From Thermoflexus hugenholtzii JAD2 (GTDB taxonomy: Bacteria > Chloroflexota > Anaerolineae > Thermoflexales > Thermoflexaceae), in NCBI RefSeq assembly GCF_900187885.1, contig NZ_FYEK01000022.1, forward strand, positions 60,001 through 124,000: a DNA stretch of 64,000 nt, written 5' to 3'. Below the pieces are notes generated by a model. That model had not been told where the DNA came from and did no database searches. It saw nothing but the letters and a program-made list of their open reading frames with translations. The translations under genes and the position numbers were made by a program. Shown piece after piece: positions 3,148-24,930 of this stretch (the stretch's first letter is position 1; the number at the start of each line of letters is the position of its first letter).

Positions 3148-5019
3148 ATGTGGTCCGCGTGGATGGAGCTGCGCCGGACGGCGGCGGACGCCGTCCGTGT
3201 GTTCATCCTGGGCCCCCAGTGGAGCGGCGTCGGCCTGCTGGCCGACCTCCTCCGCATGGGGACACGGGGGTGGGCCTGGGTCCTGTTGCTGCTCGCCACC
3301 CTGGGGACGGCCTTCGTCTTCACCCTCCCGGGGGCGGCCCCGCAGGCCCGGGAGGGGTTGGCCCATCCGGCCGGGACCGGGCTGCTCACGCTGTGGATGG
3401 CCTTCCTCTGGACCTTGCTGACGGCGACGGCGGGGGATCTGCCGGCGGCCTTCCGGCTGCCAGTCGCGATCTACGGCCTGTTCTACTTCGGCCTGCCGCT
3501 GCTCAGCGCCGCCGCCCCCCATCTGGTGCTTATACCCACGCTGGCCCTTCTGCTGTTCGAGCGGACCCATCCCCGCTCCGCCCTGGCGGGCTGGCCCGGG
3601 CGGCTCCTGTGGGCGCTGGCCCTGGCCCAGTTCCCGCCCCATCCGATCCGCCCCTTCTTGCTCAGTCTGGGGGTCAAGGCGCTGCTGGGGATCGGGCTGA
3701 TGAGCCTTCCCTTCTGGCCCTCGGTGCGGATCTCTCGGATGGCGCGGGGGGGCCTGCTGGCCCTGGGCCTGACGATCCCCTATCTGGCCGCCTGGGGGAG
3801 CGGGCCGGCGGCCACCGGCGAGGGGATCCGGCAGATGCTCGCCGGGGTGTGGGGTCTGAGCGTCCCGGTCTGGCTCTGGCTGGGGGCCAATCTGGTCGAG
3901 GAGGGGGGACGCCTGGGCCATTTCTGGAGCCGCCGGATGGAGCTCCTGCACGCCCGCCCTCGCCTCTTCGGGGCCCTTCCCTTCCTGGCCCTGGCCCTGG
4001 GCGCACTGGCCCTGCCGGCTTTCTGGCCGGAGCTGGGGATGGCGCTGCTGGCACCCCTGGGACCGTGGGGTCCCCTCGCGCTGTATCAAGGGGTCTGGCA
4101 TACCCTTCGAGACTGGCCTCTGGACGCCTATCTGGCGGGCCGGACGGCCGTCGGGGTCCTGTTCGTCCTGGGGCTGGCCGGCCTTGGGATGCGGCGGCGG
4201 ATGGAGCCGGTGGCCTTCGGCCAGCGGTATGTCGCCCTCCTCATCGGCGCGGTGGCCTTTCTCTTCGCCTTCTACCAGGCGTTCTTCGAGGTTGTGGACC
4301 TGGAGCTGCCTCAGCAGTGGTGGCCGCTGCTTCTGGTGATGGTGGCCTGGACATGGGAGCCGTTGAAGGGCCTGCAGGAGCTGCGGGAGGAAGCGGAGGA
4401 TCTGCTGGAGTGGATCCTCGCGGCCGGGCTGCTGTTGCTCACCGCCGTCATGGCCCGGCAGCTCGAGGATCCAGAGGGGCTGGTCCGGAACACCGCCCTG
4501 TGGCCGCTGCTGGGGGCGATGGCCTGGGGCTTCCCCTACCTGCTGTTCACCGCCCTGCAGGCCGCCCGGGGCGTGGAGGGAGAAGGGACTGTCTCCCCGG
4601 TTCGCCCCTTCCTGTTGGGCTATGGCCTGATGCTCCCGTTGGCCTCTCTGCTCCCCCTGGAGGACCGCTATCTGCCCCCGCTGGCCTTCTGGCTGGGGAG
4701 CCTGCTGCTCCCGCCGCCGGAGGGTTCGCGGATCGATCGCTGGATGCACGGGGCGTGGATCGGGTTGGGGGCGGTGGCCTTCCAGGTGGTGCCCTGGATC
4801 CTGCCCCTGCCGGTCCTTCCGTGGGCGGGGGAGTGGCTGGAGCGCCTCTACCACCGGACCCCCCTGGAGTTCCTGAGCGCGGTCTATTTCATCCGGGCGG
4901 CGGGGGCGCTGCTCGCGGCCCTTCCCCTGGCGATCCGAACGGGCCCCGGATGGCGCGGGCGGATCGGCGGGATCCTCGGCGCGCTGCTGTGGGGGCTCTG
5001 GTCCGTCCGTGCGCCCTGA
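3148..5019 (+). CDS. Large polytopic membrane protein of unknown function
   Basis: A 623-aa protein dominated by Leu/Ala/Gly/Trp-rich hydrophobic stretches, with roughly 14-16 potential membrane helices spread over the whole length and short charged loops. I see no transporter signature, no nucleotide-binding motif and no catalytic motif. The ATG follows GAGGGAAG. It comes 15 bp after the beta-propeller gene, so the two may form an envelope complex (inference from position only). A very long open frame on the opposite strand here is a composition artefact. Confidence 0.65.
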   Translation: MWSAWMELRRTAADAVRVFILGPQWSGVGLLADLLRMGTRGWAWVLLLLATLGTAFVFTLPGAAPQAREGLAHPAGTGLLTLWMAFLWTLLTATAGDLPAAFRLPVAIYGLFYFGLPLLSAAAPHLVLIPTLALLLFERTHPRSALAGWPGRLLWALALAQFPPHPIRPFLLSLGVKALLGIGLMSLPFWPSVRISRMARGGLLALGLTIPYLAAWGSGPAATGEGIRQMLAGVWGLSVPVWLWLGANLVEEGGRLGHFWSRRMELLHARPRLFGALPFLALALGALALPAFWPELGMALLAPLGPWGPLALYQGVWHTLRDWPLDAYLAGRTAVGVLFVLGLAGLGMRRRMEPVAFGQRYVALLIGAVAFLFAFYQAFFEVVDLELPQQWWPLLLVMVAWTWEPLKGLQELREEAEDLLEWILAAGLLLLTAVMARQLEDPEGLVRNTALWPLLGAMAWGFPYLLFTALQAARGVEGEGTVSPVRPFLLGYGLMLPLASLLPLEDRYLPPLAFWLGSLLLPPPEGSRIDRWMHGAWIGLGAVAFQVVPWILPLPVLPWAGEWLERLYHRTPLEFLSAVYFIRAAGALLAALPLAIRTGPGWRGRIGGILGALLWGLWSVRAP

Positions 5020-5113
5020 GGCCGCATCCTTCTGTTCACAGCCTGTTCACGGGGGCGGAGGAAGATAAGGCCCGAGGGGCTGGGAGATCCGGATCTCACG
5101 CCGGGAGGCTTCG

Positions 5114-5317
5114 ATGGCTGGGATCGAACCGATGTCGCATCGGCGGCTCGTGCGCGTCTACGTGGTCCAGGTCTTCCAGGATCCCGATGGGGCGATCTAC
5201 GGCCGGGTGACGGAGCCGGCCACCATGCGCCAGTGGGTCTTCCGGGACCTCGCGGATCTGCCGGGCATCCTGGGGCAAGGGGTGGAAGGCCTCTCGGAAA
5301 CGCCTCCGGGGAAGTGA
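5114..5317 (+). CDS. Small conserved-looking protein, function unknown
   Basis: A 67-aa protein starting at an ATG preceded by GGGAGG. The sequence VRVYVVQVFQDPDGAIYGRV followed by a short helix (WVFRDLADLPGIL) resembles a small alpha/beta domain of one beta-hairpin plus a helix. I cannot place it in a family. Its stop overlaps a GTG start of another short basic frame (GTGA at 5314-5317), which suggests translational coupling. It sits beside a decayed hicB antitoxin, so a toxin-antitoxin or defence-remnant context is possible but unproven. Confidence 0.45.
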   Translation: MAGIEPMSHRRLVRVYVVQVFQDPDGAIYGRVTEPATMRQWVFRDLADLPGILGQGVEGLSETPPGK

Positions 5318-5442
5318 CCCAGTGGTGGCTCCGCCGCCGAAGGGAGCTCGCCGATTGGAAGGGGGCCATCGTCCGGGCGGCTCGATGGACGGCGCGCCGC
5401 AAGCGCCGCCGGACGAGGCTCCCGATGCGTTCAGAGCCGTAA
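5314..5442 (+). CDS. Possible 42-aa Arg-rich protein coupled to the preceding gene
   Basis: A short frame opening with GTG at 5314, overlapping the previous stop by four bases (GTGA). The product is very basic and Trp-rich (start TQWWLRRRRELADWKG) and ends before a TAA at 5440. The four-base overlap and the codon pattern support translation, but at this length it may be chance. No recognised family. Confidence 0.25.
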   Translation: MTQWWLRRRRELADWKGAIVRAARWTARRKRRRTRLPMRSEP

Positions 5443-5479
5443 GCCCTTAAGAACTGCCTTTGGGGCAAGCAAGCGCGAG

Positions 5480-5665
5480 AATTTTACGTGGTGATCCGAA
5501 CGGGATGAAGACGGGTATTATGTGGGGGAGGTTCCCCAACTGCGAGCCTGCTATCGCCAGGGGCGAACGCTGGAGGAGCTGTTGGAAAATATTCGAGAAG
5601 TTATTCAGATGTGTCTGGAGGAAGGCAAGGAGCCAAGCACGGAGTTCATCGGTTTACAAGGGTAG
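5480..5665 (+). pseudogene. Degraded hicB-type antitoxin gene
   Basis: Reading from 5495 gives DEDGYYVGEVPQLRACY and then QGRTLEELLENIREVIQM, the core of the HicB antitoxin partial-RNase-H fold, ending at a TAG at 5663. The N-terminal strand is destroyed. The bases before it read TTTACGTGGTGATCCGAACG where an intact gene would need roughly TTT ACG GTG GTG ATC GAA CG. One G is therefore missing and one C extra, leaving a TGA at 5492-5494 in the frame of the conserved core. No start codon precedes it and I find no hicA toxin on either side. This is a relic of a HicAB module. Confidence 0.75.
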
Positions 5666-5783
5666 TCATCGAGGGAAGGGCTTCTGGGTAGGACATAAAC
5701 AACCGGAGGCGACCTTCTGCTTTCGTTGGCCGGCGGAGGGCCGCCTCCGGCGTTCATTCGGGAGAGGAGGGTGTTGCGCCTCC

Positions 5784-6812
5784 TTATCCGGTGCCGGCGG
5801 GACCAACGGCCTGACGCAGCGCTTCCCGCAGGCGCTGGATCTCCGGCTCCCAGCGGGCCTCCCCCAGGGCGATCCGCTGGTGCTTGCGGAAGGCCAGCTC
5901 CGTCGCCAGGGCGTAGATCCACCCCAGCCGTCGGAAGGTATCCATATCCCCTCGCAGCAGCGCCCCCCAGCGCATGCCGATCCGTCCGAGGATCGAGGCG
6001 GATTGCCGGTAGAGGGCCTCCGGCAGCACCCCTGCCTCCACCTCCTCCCGCAGATACTGCCGCAGCCAGCGCCGCTCCCGGGTGAGTCCGTAGAGGGCGA
6101 TGGCGAAGATCAGCAGCGCCCCCGCCCAATCGAAGGGAACCCAGAGCAGGCAGACCAGCGGGGACTGAGTGGCTTCGGTCAGGGTGGCCACGGCGTTGTG
6201 CAGGGCGTGGAAGGCCATGGCCCCGCCCAGGCCCAGGACGGGGGCGGTCAGGCGGACCAGGGCCGAGGTCGACAGCCGGGCGGCGGCGAACCCCAGGCCG
6301 GTGAGGGCGGTGAAGGCCGCGTGGTTCAGGCCGAAGAGGAAGGCCCGAGCGATGAAGTTGCCGAACATCCCCCCCAGCCCGCCCGCAGAGGCCGCGCCCA
6401 GAAAATAGAAGACGTTTTCTGTGGCGGCGAAGCCGAAGCCCACCAGGGAGCCGTAGAGGAAGCCGTCGTAGAGGCTGTCGATCTCCCGGCGGTAGAGCAA
6501 AAAGAGCAAAAAAACGAAAAGCCCCTTGAAGAGCTCCTCCGTGAAGGGCGCGACGAGGATGGCGCTCATGGCGCCTCCCGCGCTCTGCCCCAGCGCGGCC
6601 TGGAAGACGGCGACGGCCGGGACCTGGGCACACAGGGAAAGCAAGACCGTAGGGACGCTGCCCCACAGGAAGGCGGCGGCGATCAGCCAGAGGGGCTCCT
6701 TCTCGAAGCGGTCGAACCACCAGGCGAAGGCCGCATAGAGGATCATCGGCCCGAAGGCCAGCACGGGCGCCAGACACAGGGCGATGAGCGGGAATCCTCC
6801 CTGGCTCTCCAT
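5784..6812 (-). CDS. PrsW-family intramembrane metalloprotease, paralogue 1
   Basis: A 342-aa polytopic protein with the PrsW/YhfN-CAAX-like signatures: FDRFEKEP near residues 33-40, the metal-binding pair E92-E93 (FTEELFKG), DGFLYG at 116-121 followed by FGFAATEN (E132), and His residues at 164, 202 and 205. In the PrsW family these residues form the membrane active site used in site-1-type cleavage of membrane substrates such as anti-sigma factors. The C-terminal ~90 residues are a soluble helical extension shared with the next paralogue. It lies 34 bp downstream of that paralogue on the same strand. The substrate is not evident. Confidence 0.85.
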   Translation of the reverse strand: MESQGGFPLIALCLAPVLAFGPMILYAAFAWWFDRFEKEPLWLIAAAFLWGSVPTVLLSLCAQVPAVAVFQAALGQSAGGAMSAILVAPFTEELFKGLFVFLLFLLYRREIDSLYDGFLYGSLVGFGFAATENVFYFLGAASAGGLGGMFGNFIARAFLFGLNHAAFTALTGLGFAAARLSTSALVRLTAPVLGLGGAMAFHALHNAVATLTEATQSPLVCLLWVPFDWAGALLIFAIALYGLTRERRWLRQYLREEVEAGVLPEALYRQSASILGRIGMRWGALLRGDMDTFRRLGWIYALATELAFRKHQRIALGEARWEPEIQRLREALRQAVGPAGTG

Positions 6813-12145: not shown

Positions 12146-13186
12146 TCAGTTTCCCGGATTGGGCGCGCCTGGATGATCCCATTCAGAGGCGGAAGGCCAT
12201 GGGAAGGGATGGAAGGGAGTCTGACAGGGCGGTCCGAAGGCGTATTCGACGGTGCGCCCCCGGAGGTCCGCGATCACAGACCAGAGGGTAGAGAACCCGG
12301 GGCGATGCCCGCAGACGGGTGCCTCGTGATCGCTTAAAGCCCTGAGGAGGCGCTCCCGGGGCGGGCCATCCCCGGTTGCGATGTGTTCCGTTAGCCGTTC
12401 CTTCCGCCGCATGGAGAACCGCAGATCCCGACGGCCCTGATAGGGCCGCAGCGCCGGATGCTCATAGTGGTTCGTCACCGTCAGGATCCCGTTCTCTGGG
12501 AGGCGCACCGCCGCGCAGAGCGGATGGATCTCCACAGCGAACCCCTCATAGGGATCGGCGACCAGGAGGTTTAGGGGGAGCATATGAGGGATCCGCAGCG
12601 CGAGCTCGGCGGCCTCCCCGGCCGAGCGGCAGCGCTCGAGCAGGATGCGGGGGATCAGGTGGAAGGGGATCCCGGGCCGGGGAGGCGGCTCGTCGGCCAT
12701 CACGGCGTGCAGGGAGACGAAGAGGCCGGCCTCGTTGACCCCGTCGTAACGGCCACCGGGGACGCTGCCCATCATCCCCAGGGAGGCCAGGCCCCCCTCC
12801 GGGCGCAGCCCCACCAGGTCCCGCCGGCGCTGGATCGGCCGGAAATCGTAATTGCGCCCTACCCACGCGCCCGCAGGCTCCCACACGGCCACGGCGGAGC
12901 AGGCGAAGGGACGGGCGCGCATGGAGGTCCGGCAGACCTGCTGCCAGAGGAGTCGGGGGTCCATCCCCTGGGCGGCGGCGTAACCTTCGTATTCCTCGAT
13001 CAAGGGGGGATGCCAGCGGGCCACCAGCCGGCGGCAGGCCTCGGCCAGCTCGGGATCCGGAGGCGGCGGCCACCAGGGCGGGCGATGAAAAGGCGGATCC
13101 AGGCGGCCCAGCTGCGCGCCGATCTCCCGCGGGGTCCCGGCCAGCATCCGCACCCGGTAAGGCGCCGGGGGGAACAGTTCGGGCAT
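12146..13186 (-). CDS. C45-family Ntn-hydrolase (acyl-transferase/peptidase-like)
   Basis: A 346-aa protein of the acyl-CoA:6-aminopenicillanic-acid acyltransferase (peptidase C45) group. The predicted autocatalytic nucleophile is C96 in PFACSAVAV. It is followed by the conserved VGRNYDFRP and later NEAGLFVSLH and TVTNHYEHP motifs. Enzymes of this family are made as proenzymes that cleave before the Cys and then hydrolyse or transfer acyl groups on amides. The physiological substrate cannot be read from sequence. The start at 13186 is 17 bp from the stop of aroQ, so the two are probably one transcript. Confidence 0.8.
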   Translation of the reverse strand: MPELFPPAPYRVRMLAGTPREIGAQLGRLDPPFHRPPWWPPPPDPELAEACRRLVARWHPPLIEEYEGYAAAQGMDPRLLWQQVCRTSMRARPFACSAVAVWEPAGAWVGRNYDFRPIQRRRDLVGLRPEGGLASLGMMGSVPGGRYDGVNEAGLFVSLHAVMADEPPPRPGIPFHLIPRILLERCRSAGEAAELALRIPHMLPLNLLVADPYEGFAVEIHPLCAAVRLPENGILTVTNHYEHPALRPYQGRRDLRFSMRRKERLTEHIATGDGPPRERLLRALSDHEAPVCGHRPGFSTLWSVIADLRGRTVEYAFGPPCQTPFHPFPWPSASEWDHPGAPNPGN

Positions 13187-20103: not shown

Positions 20104-20964
20104 ATGAAGATGCGGGGGAGAAGCGCGATGGATCTGATCAGCGTCGTGTGGGAGGTGCGGCCGGAGCGGGCCGCCTCGTTGCCCCGCTGGCTGGGATACG
20201 CCGTGTATGGGGCAGTGCTGCGGCGGCTGGCGGAACGGGATGCAGCGCGGGCCGCGGAAGTGCATGAGGCGGAGGGGCCGTCGGGCCTCACCTGCTCCAC
20301 CCTGATGGGGCCCCGGGAGGGGGAGGCGGTGGACCCGGGGCGGGTGTATCGCCTGCGGGTGACGGCCTATCGGCCGGAGCTGGCCCCGCTCATCGATCCG
20401 GAGGGAGGCGTCCTGTGGGGGGAGGGGGAGCGGATCGAGCTGGAGGGCGTGCCCTTCCGGGTGGAGCGGGTGATCCGGGAGGGGGATCCGTGGGCGGGGT
20501 GGACGACGTATGAGGAGCTGATCGCGCGGCATGGGCGGGGGCCGCGGGCGTGGCCCCGGGAGGTGACCTTGCAGTTCACCTCGCCGACGGCTTTTCGGGA
20601 CGGGGAGCGGTGGAACCCGCTGCCGGTTCCGGAGGCGGTGTTCGGGCATTTGATGGAGAAGTGGAACCGGTTTGCGCCGGCGGTGCTGCCGGAGGTTCTG
20701 CGGGAGATGGTGGCGGCGCGGGTGGGGGTGGCCCGGTTCGATCTGTCGAGCCGGGCGGTGCGGGTGAAGGAGGGGGTGCGCATCGGGTGCGTCGGGCAGG
20801 TGAGATATCGGGTGCTGGGGGAGGATCGGTATCTGCAGGCCATGCTGCATATGCTGGCGGAGTTCGCCCGGTATGCGGGGGTGGGGATCCTGACCGGGAT
20901 GGGGATGGGCCAGGCGCGGGCCCTGCGGGAGGAAGAGCGCCCCGGGCCGGATGCTGGAGCCTGA
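20104..20964 (+). CDS. cas6: Cas6-type CRISPR RNA endonuclease, orphan
   Basis: A 286-aa protein matching Cas6: a beta-alpha-beta N-terminal half (LISVVWEVRPERAASLPRWL), the sequence EVTLQFTSPTAFRDG at ~residues 156-170, and the diagnostic C-terminal Gly-rich loop FARYAGVGILTGMGMGQAR. Cas6 cuts the repeat RNA of type I and type III systems to make crRNA. No other cas gene and no repeat-spacer array lies in the window. Start at ATG 20104 has GGAGG directly upstream. Either it serves an array elsewhere in the genome in trans, or it has been recruited for another RNA. Confidence 0.85.
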   Translation: MKMRGRSAMDLISVVWEVRPERAASLPRWLGYAVYGAVLRRLAERDAARAAEVHEAEGPSGLTCSTLMGPREGEAVDPGRVYRLRVTAYRPELAPLIDPEGGVLWGEGERIELEGVPFRVERVIREGDPWAGWTTYEELIARHGRGPRAWPREVTLQFTSPTAFRDGERWNPLPVPEAVFGHLMEKWNRFAPAVLPEVLREMVAARVGVARFDLSSRAVRVKEGVRIGCVGQVRYRVLGEDRYLQAMLHMLAEFARYAGVGILTGMGMGQARALREEERPGPDAGA

Positions 20965-22235: not shown

Positions 22236-23069
22236 TCACTCCTCCAATGAGAGGGACCGCTTTGGGAAGTCCCAGTGGAGGTGTTCCACGCGTCCCTCCC
22301 AGCCGATCAGCCGGTGCAGCTGCTCCTGAAAGCGCAGCGGATCCCCAGTGGTGAAGAAGCGGGCCGTCGGCTCGGAGGACTGGGACAGCTCGCCTGCCTG
22401 CACGCGCCACACCTCCAGGGCCCGTCGGGCCACCGCCGGCGCGGGGTCGATCAGGAGGACCTCCGGGCCGCTCAGGCGCTGGATCAGCGGGGCGAGGAAG
22501 GCGTAGTGGGTGCAGGCCAGCACCAGGACGTCGGCGCCTGCCTGGAGGACCGGATCCAGATGGATGCGGACGCGGGCCTCCGCCTCCGGGCCCTCCAGGA
22601 GCCCGGCCTCCACCTGCTCCACCCACCCGGTGCAGACCCGGGGGACCACCCGGACGTCCCGGGCGAACCGCTCCACCACCCGGGCCATCAGCGGGCCGTT
22701 GAGCGTGCCGAAGGTCCCCAGCACTCCGATCACCCCGCTTCGGGTGCGGGCGGCGGCCGGCTTCACCGCCGGCTCGATGCCGACGAAGGGGATCTCGGGG
22801 AAGGCTTCCCGCAGCGGCCAGAGGGCGGCCGCCGAGGTGGTGTGGCTGGCCAGGACGATGACCCGTGCGCCATGGTCCCGGAGGAAGCGCGTGATGGCCT
22901 CGGCGAACCGCCGGATCTCCTCCGGCGGCCGCGGGCCGTAGGGGACGTGGGCCTGGTCGGCCACATAAAGGGTAGGGATCTGCGGGGCCAGCCGAACGAG
23001 CTCCCGCCACACCGAGAGCCCTCCGACCCCCGAATCGAAGATCCCCACCGCCGGCACAGGGGCTTTCAC
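22236..23069 (-). CDS. murI: Glutamate racemase homologue lacking the first catalytic cysteine
   Basis: A 277-aa Asp/Glu racemase-superfamily protein of normal MurI length. FDSGVGGLSVWREL (11-24) and YVADQAHVPYGPRP match MurI, as does the second active-site motif VLACTHYAFL with C186 and H188. In canonical MurI the first base is Cys in V-ACNT-S; here the motif reads VLASHTTSA, so Ser75 replaces Cys and His replaces Asn. Two-base racemisation should be impaired. It could be a slow racemase, a one-Cys decarboxylase-like enzyme or an inactive relative. Checked in DNA: the codon is AGC. The gene symbol describes homology only. Confidence 0.8.
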   Translation of the reverse strand: MKAPVPAVGIFDSGVGGLSVWRELVRLAPQIPTLYVADQAHVPYGPRPPEEIRRFAEAITRFLRDHGARVIVLASHTTSAAALWPLREAFPEIPFVGIEPAVKPAAARTRSGVIGVLGTFGTLNGPLMARVVERFARDVRVVPRVCTGWVEQVEAGLLEGPEAEARVRIHLDPVLQAGADVLVLACTHYAFLAPLIQRLSGPEVLLIDPAPAVARRALEVWRVQAGELSQSSEPTARFFTTGDPLRFQEQLHRLIGWEGRVEHLHWDFPKRSLSLEE

Positions 23070-23573: not shown

Positions 23574-23603
23574 GCCCTGTGACTTCGATTCGCGGGGGGT
23601 GTG

Positions 23604-24930
23604 ATGCGCCTGCTGATCCGCCAGGTTGCCGCGATCCCGCTGGATGGCGTGCATGACCTTCTCCCCGAGGTGGATATCGCCATCGAGCATGGGCGGATCC
23701 GTGCCATCGGGGCAGTCCCGCCGGATTTCACCCCGGATCAGATCATCGATGGCCGGGAATATGTGGCCCTTCCGGCCTTTTTCAACGCCCACACCCATGC
23801 GGCGATGACCCTGGAGCGGGGATAGGCGGAGGATCTGCCCTTCGACCGCTGGCTCAACGAGAAGATCTGGGTCGCCGAATCCGCGCTGGAAGAGGAGGAC
23901 GTCTACTGGGGCGCGGCGCTGGCGTGTTGCGAGATGATCCGCTGCGGCATCGTTGGGTTCGCAGACCATTACTTCTGGATGCATCAGGTGGCCCGCGTGG
24001 TGGCGGAGGCCGGGATGAAGGCCCTCCTGGCCTGGTGCCAGTTCGGCCTCGGCGCGGAGCAAGAGGTGGGCGGCGCGGGGCTGGAGGACACCGTCGCCTT
24101 CATCCGGGAGTGGAACGGCGCCGCCGATGGCCGCATCCGGTGCGCGCTGGGCCCCCACTCTCCTTAACATGTGTCCGCCGGATTTCCTGCGCCGCGTCGT
24201 GCGGGAGGCGGAGCGGCTCGGCGTGGGCATCCACCTCCATGTGTCGGAGTCGGAGGAGCAGGTGCGCAACTCCCTGCGAGCCTACGGTCGGACGCCGGTG
24301 GCCCACCTGGCGGAGCTGGGCGTCTTCGAGCATCCCACCCTCGCCGCCCACTGCATCGTGGTCACCGATGAGGACCTGGCCATCTTGGCGGAGAAGGGGG
24401 TCTATGTCGCCCACACCCCGAAGACCTATATGAAGCTGGCCATGGGGATGGCCCCTCTGGATCGCTTCCTGAACGCGGGGGTGCGGGTGGCCCTGGGGAC
24501 GGATGGCCCGGCCTCGAACAACGATCTGAACATGCTGGAGGTGTTGCGCATCACCGGGCTGGTGCACAAGAACCGGGTCGGTGACCCGGCGGCCTTCCCG
24601 CATCATCTGCTTCTGCGGCTGGCGACGCAGGAAGCCGCGCGCGCCCTCGGGTTCGTTGAGAGCGGCGTCCTGAAACCCGGCGCCCCCGCCGACCTGATCC
24701 TGCTGGACACGCGAGACGTCCACTCGTTCCCACGCCACAGTCTGGCTGCGAACATCGTCTATGCCAGCCATCCATCAGATGTCCGCTATGTCTTCTGCGA
24801 TGGCCGTCCCCTCTTGTGGGATGGCCAGCTAATGACCCTGGATGAGGAGCGCATCCGCTACGAGGCGGAACGGCGGGCCTTCCGAATGGTCGGCGCCCCG
24901 ATGCGGCTAATGCGGCGATATGTGGGATGA
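23604..24930 (+). pseudogene. Disrupted amidohydrolase (MtaD/SAH-deaminase-like)
   Basis: The three segments together encode a ~440-aa metal-dependent deaminase of the 5-methylthioadenosine/S-adenosylhomocysteine deaminase type: FNAHTHAAMTL (metal site HxH), then GPHSP, then HVSESEEQVR, LAAHCIV, VAHTPKTYMKLAMG and LGTDGPASNNDLNML. Two lesions break it. TAG at 23823-23825 replaces the Tyr of the usual RGYADDL motif, and a frameshift near 24165-24168 follows GPHSP. All catalytic motifs are otherwise well preserved, so the inactivation looks recent, or reflects base-call errors. Start ATG 23604 follows GGGGGG. Confidence 0.85.

Follow-up and report, generated by a model that had tools for sequence, protein, structure and literature searches.

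Glutamate racemase (MurI), a target for antibacterials, is the textbook case of an enzyme with two bases that are both thiols. Arylmalonate decarboxylase (AMDase) has a single cysteine (Cys188, on the second side), a glycine on the first side, and a different substrate pocket. The genus Thermoflexus, which lives in hot springs and grows at high temperature, was reportedly described by Dodsworth in 2014.

According to the passages cited here, the N-domain cysteine of MurI acts on D-Glu and the C-domain cysteine on L-Glu, and a Cys-to-Ser exchange in the L. fermenti enzyme causes a 10^3-fold loss of activity without abolishing it (PMC6927343). Cys-to-Ser mutants of HisR show greatly reduced activity with both isomers (in the portion of PMC11602996 cited). 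Several enzymes naturally lack the first thiol: EcL-DER (Thr83/Cys197) is described as converting L-Asp to D-Asp irreversibly (PMC8142540, in part) and as inactive on D-Asp and D-Glu, while RacX (Ala79/Cys193) is described as working in both directions (both PMC12838360, in part). Because the RacX with Ala79 is an active racemase, the first position can even be without a proton donor. A natural Ser93/Cys236 pair, serving both directions, is described for a hydroxyproline epimerase (PMC4113996, in part). Replacement of the first cysteine is known in the aspartate-racemase branch; for MurI, we recognized no report of a natural Ser/Cys enzyme, or of a Thermoflexus MurI, in the literature searched, whose coverage left out most subscription journals.

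A MurI Homolog With Serine at the First Catalytic Position

The window (the whole stretch of DNA analyzed, 64,000 nucleotides) encodes a MurI homolog of 277 aa with a GTG start at positions 22236..23069 on the minus strand, including the motifs VLASHTTSA and LACTHYA. In the first motif, codon 75 (22845..22847, minus strand; coordinates calculated from the codon number) is AGC, which places serine where the cysteine of the N-terminal domain, the D-Glu-side base, is expected. In the second, codon 186 (22512..22514, minus strand) is TGC, and the second catalytic cysteine, the L-Glu-side base, is intact. Both features had been reported in the initial annotation, which named no strand, and are confirmed here, the serine in all nine genomes of the genus. 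The protein has only two cysteines, Cys146 and Cys186; since position 146 also holds Cys in most of the aligned relatives (42 of 49), no new thiol replaces the first catalytic cysteine. The catalytic pair is Ser75/Cys186 in place of the two cysteines by which glutamate racemase is defined, and the window protein is a MurI homolog, but not a canonical two-Cys MurI.

The residues D12, S13, P43, Y44, T119, T122, E154, C186, and H188 are invariant in the 49-row MurI alignment. The set that we take to form the Glu pocket (DSG, PYG, T119/T122, E154, and T187-H188) is invariant or nearly so; part of this assignment follows the cited passages of PMC6927343. The statement that all remaining motifs are normal holds for these residues, but not for the second loop, where the window protein has Ala185 (Gly in 41 of 49 rows, Ala common to eight) and Ala190 (Pro in 45 of 49). 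Residue 190 is Ala or Thr in Thermoflexus and is more genus-specific than His76 (codon CAC, 22842..22844, minus strand). The latter, which stands where most relatives have Asn, had been listed as an additional oddity. It was rejected as an anomaly, given that His adjoins the catalytic cysteine (AC-H) in many MurIs (L079, L080, L212, and all 11 of L189-L199).

The window protein exceeds the cut-offs of the NCBIfam glutamate racemase model TIGR00067 (170.5 bits, cut-off 146.65), as does the MurI of all nine Thermoflexus genomes, and of the Pfam family Asp_Glu_race, PF01177 (71.9 bits, cut-off 31); TIGR00035 (asp_race) is absent from its NCBIfam matches at E 0.001. The AlphaFold model, built on the 49-row alignment, has a pLDDT of 95.4 and predicts Ser75 directly before a helix (76-89) and Cys186 directly before another (187-200). 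When this predicted model was used as the query, the first 31 of the 50 solved-structure matches listed were glutamate racemases (Z 35.9 to 25.7), the closest among the matches listed being 3hfr from Listeria (Z 35.9, rmsd 1.9 over 264, 34% identity). EcL-DER (5ell) comes after the glutamate racemases (Z 14.7, 13% identity), and AMDase is absent among the 50 matches listed, which excludes nothing. As judged from the alignment and the predicted model, the protein matches true glutamate racemases in its Glu-binding residues and in its fold.

Conservation of Serine Within Thermoflexus and Its Distribution Outside the Genus

Nine genomes of Thermoflexus (Chloroflexota) were compared, including that of the window (G000, with MurI L001; 3.2 Mb, 97.7% complete). 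The motif ASHT with an AGC-coded Ser75 occurs in all nine, the second cysteine is kept in all nine, and murI is full length and stop-free in each. Across the genus alignment, neither Cys186, His188, nor any of the Glu-pocket residues varies. The dN/dS of murI is 0.055-0.27 by YN00 (23 of the 36 genus pairs giving values) and higher by NG86, up to 0.43. Because the same AGC codon recurs in nine of nine genomes, Ser75 is neither chance nor a sequencing error, and dN/dS values well under 1 indicate that murI with its serine is kept by purifying selection.

The comparison with relatives suggested in the initial annotation finds serine conserved throughout the genus and, among the relatives read outside it, cysteine with one exception (L048); the refuting observation named there, Cys in relatives, is made only outside Thermoflexus. 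Two public records titled Thermoflexus sp., for which the title alone gives the genus (L036 and L077; 61 and 51% identity), both have Cys, as do 18 of 18 further class members read; in the class search 98 genomes matched, and loci were taken from the best 30 of 98. The MurI tree was built from 96 rows (86 Cys, 10 Ser) out of 110 loci. The 14 left out comprise copies of genus genomes (L031-L035, L084), loci judged duplicates or near-duplicates (L038, L041, L075, L082), loci cut at contig ends (L012, L022, L029), and one more removed by a 230-aa filter; among the 13 named, the six genus copies have Ser, L029 does not cover the site, and the rest have Cys. In this tree the nine sequences of the genus cluster together (SH-aLRT 99), and to this cluster L079 (Cys, ACHA) is nearest (support 85), and the tenth Ser row, L048 (ASNTTSA, LGCTHYP), is placed away from them, such that the distribution of Ser needs two changes. 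Given the starred branches, the same sequences may reflect a single origin of Ser in the genus and L048.

The exceptional locus lies at 5001-5786 in G041, a genome titled 'bacterium isolate RS_7_18', where it is the sole PF01177 member; Mur ligases and a MurD-like sequence (L208) are present. The identity of L048 is 51% to L039, a Chloroflexi MurI, and 31-36% to the MurIs of G041 relatives (12 of 39 searched genomes matched, G041 included). All 11 relatives whose MurI was read have Cys, and L048 is the only Ser-bearing relative outside the genus among those read. As L048 is distant from the MurIs of the G041 relatives, the gene may have been acquired; judging by these sequences, transfer or a binning error is possible.

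Demand for D-Glutamate and Its Possible Sources

The window's genome encodes MurC, MurD, MurE, MurF, MraY, and MurG above curated cut-offs, along with a transpeptidase-like penicillin-binding protein below the cut-offs of its models; one more open reading frame of the mur cluster has no model match. Five Mur-ligase-domain matches occur in each of the nine Thermoflexus genomes. The Glu-site stretches of Thermoflexus MurD resemble those of class relatives with Cys MurI, and the counterpart of E. coli Lys348 is likewise Lys. At the four positions described for the MurD2-type Glu site (Glu197, Arg358, Pro433, and Phe435; PMC8788868, in part), Thermoflexus MurD has Asn, Lys, Thr, and Phe, for the most part as in class relatives with Cys MurI; three of the four are not MurD2-like, and the single MurD2-like residue (Phe) is common to class relatives. 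A change at the E. coli Lys319 position, which lets MurD take L-Glu, was considered and rejected: Thermoflexus has Ile there, as do seven of seven class relatives compared, and since five of these have Cys MurI, the residue is not Thermoflexus-specific. From this gene set, we infer that D-Glu is present in Thermoflexus wall precursors. PMC8129789 gives the Glu/Asp ABC transporter (GltIKJL) as not found, and its main text makes no mention of peptidoglycan, murein, racemase, or cell wall.

Another D-Glu source had been proposed as one possibility. In none of the nine genus genomes is there a second MurI or other Asp/Glu racemase in the form of a further PF01177 member above the cut-off; in six there is a second match, but with 17.9-20.6 bits it falls short of the required 31. 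The weak match in the window's genome (L175) was rejected, the surrounding stretch being without a Pfam match. The same genome has two aminotransferase-IV (PF01063) genes, AT1 and AT2, both of the branched-chain (IlvE) type: they score 426.0 and 339.7 bits against TIGR01122 (ilvE_I; cut-off 245.55), and 148.0 and 132.2 bits against the D-amino-acid transaminase model TIGR01121 (cut-off 277.45). Model scoring covered the window's genome, and the genes of the other genus genomes were compared with these two. Most Thermoflexus genomes have two IlvE paralogs; one (G006) has a third PF01063 match, weak and different. G014, a genome with Cys in its MurI match, also has orthologs of both AT1 and AT2, and the two genes are therefore not a replacement specific to Thermoflexus.

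In favor of another source are relatives in the class that have no proper MurI. TIGR00067 has no match in nine of 41 relatives, and G010 and G026 have matches far below the cut-off only; the 11 class genomes concerned are G010, G015, G018, G019, G024-G027, and G031-G033. At least two of these, G010 and G015, still have MurD, and each has one IlvE-like aminotransferase. The presence of MurD in the absence of a proper MurI suggests that the class may own another source, and a further D-Glu route in the class may exist on this sequence evidence. Another PF01177 member above the cut-off occurs in eight of the 11 (none in G018, G024, and G027); the eight include G010 and G015, which in this respect are unlike Thermoflexus, and this qualifies their case.

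Genomic Neighborhood

The neighbors of murI (aldose-epimerase-like, Cas6, DUF512/radical SAM, DUF711, and topoisomerase I genes) are only partly conserved across the genus and form no wall operon, and therefore the context gives no functional clue. The Cas6 endoribonuclease (PF10040, 67.3 bits; 20104-20964, plus strand) lies between the DUF512/radical SAM and aldose-epimerase-like genes. Upstream of murI, an amidohydrolase gene (23601-24930, plus strand) is broken by an N-terminal in-frame stop and a frame change before the 24127-24930 open reading frame; its Pfam match runs from profile position 131 onward only, and in L031 the last third alone is matched. The window also encodes an acyl-CoA:6-aminopenicillanic acid acyltransferase family protein (PF03417, 105.8 bits; 12146-13186, minus strand).

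Proposed Activity and Alternative Explanations

We consider it probable, at roughly 0.6, that this descendant of an ordinary MurI, with its Ser/Cys pair, still supplies the D-Glu of peptidoglycan, slowly and with a bias from L to D; the proposal draws on sequence and on analogy. In the mechanism we infer, the Cys186 thiolate would abstract the alpha proton of L-Glu, the carbanion would be protonated on the opposite face by the Ser75 hydroxyl or by a water held by Ser75, and the D-Glu released would then be drawn off by MurD. In the reverse direction, Ser75 would have to act as the base on D-Glu, which it would do poorly, and for this reason the enzyme would be slow and biased toward D-Glu. This reading is favored by the kept L-side base and by the parallels in EcL-DER, RacX, and the epimerase, together with the fixation of Ser75 under selection, the single PF01177 member and the Mur-ligase matches of each genus genome, the IlvE type of both aminotransferases in the window's genome, the structure matches, and the second Ser form that is the sole family member in G041. 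Several points count against it. The 10^3-fold loss seen in the L. fermenti mutant may, by analogy, be too large, although the heat at which Thermoflexus grows may make up for some of it, and the HisR mutants were much impaired with both isomers. Class relatives without a proper MurI point to a possible other D-Glu source, NG86 dN/dS reaches 0.43, and the two records titled Thermoflexus sp. (L036 and L077) have Cys. Furthermore, MurI changes faster than MurD within the genus (77 and 74% identity between G000 and G001 or G007, compared with 86 and 85% for MurD). The broader proposal, that the whole genus makes its wall D-Glu with a one-Cys, one-way (L-to-D) MurI, that the two-Cys rule is not absolute, and that L048 in G041 is perhaps an independent case, is tentative, and we lean slightly against it.

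The initial annotation, whose observation is confirmed and whose interpretation is partly supported, had suggested other chemistry or a new function, for example that of a decarboxylase. The corresponding alternative is a one-base enzyme acting in another reaction or on another substrate (decarboxylase-like, an elimination, or racemization of another acidic amino acid), and if Thermoflexus MurI had such a job, the genus would require an unrecognized D-Glu source, such as a side activity of an IlvE-type enzyme or MurL. The single catalytic cysteine, the second-loop changes (Ala185, Ala/Thr190), the two IlvE paralogs of most genus genomes, and the case of G010 and G015 are compatible with this, but we found no positive support for a decarboxylase, and the kept Glu pocket, the structure matches, the D-Glu ligase set, the racemase cut-off exceeded in all nine genomes, the AT1/AT2 orthologs beside a Cys MurI in G014, and the lack of any other PF01177 member above the cut-off in the nine genomes make it unlikely, and less likely than D-Glu supply. 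In the opposite direction, Ser75 could be a full second base, activated by the helix N-terminus or by His76, in a near-normal two-way glutamate racemase. The position of Ser75 directly before helix 76-89 in the predicted model would suit such a role, and the Ser/Cys hydroxyproline epimerase (PMC4113996, in part) and the RacX with Ala (PMC12838360, in part) are described as working both ways; set against these, the inactivity of EcL-DER, with its Thr, on D isomers (PMC12838360, in part) and the loss in the L. fermenti mutant (PMC6927343, in part) render this improbable.

Two further explanations deny the protein its catalysis or the gene its integrity. Some MurIs are credited with DNA gyrase binding, and a catalytically dead MurI might be kept for a non-enzymatic role of this kind, having lost one catalytic residue and kept its fold; the invariance of Cys186, His188, and the Glu pocket in the genus, and the failure to find another D-Glu source, leave this very improbable. 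Nothing was found in support of a sequencing error or decaying gene, which is refuted by the shared codon in nine genomes, the full-length stop-free frames, and the dN/dS well under 1, and carries negligible weight. If the slow, L-to-D-biased glutamate racemase is the correct reading, a natural Ser/Cys MurI that is apparently the sole family member in wall-making bacteria would show how little of the catalytic pair one-way flux needs. It would also connect MurI with one-way enzymes such as EcL-DER, and reagents directed against the first cysteine would be expected to leave it unaffected.

Comparison With Known Systems

The Thermoflexus protein has in common with MurI/RacE (TIGR00067; 3hfr from Listeria, 1zuw from B. 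subtilis) its length, fold, DSG, PYG, E154, and C186-T-H, and differs from it in the change of the first Cys to Ser and of the second-loop Gly and Pro to Ala185 and Ala/Thr190. The RacX of Halocola (Ala79/Cys193) is similar in that the first cysteine is missing and the second kept in what is described as still a racemase (PMC12838360, in part), but it is a broad-specificity enzyme of the YgeA branch. The 4-hydroxyproline 2-epimerase Avi_0518 (B9JQV3) offers a natural, cofactor-free Ser/Cys acid-base pair (PMC4113996, in part), but in the proline racemase superfamily. EcL-DER (YgeA, the E. coli L-Asp/Glu-specific racemase, 5ell) shares the superfamily fold, a hydroxyl residue first, and a cysteine second, whereas it belongs to the aspartate-racemase branch, has Thr instead of Ser, and is apparently no wall-supply enzyme. 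By analogy, the non-Cys first residue and the kept second Cys would support the view that Thermoflexus MurI works like EcL-DER, as distinct from being a member of the YgeA branch.
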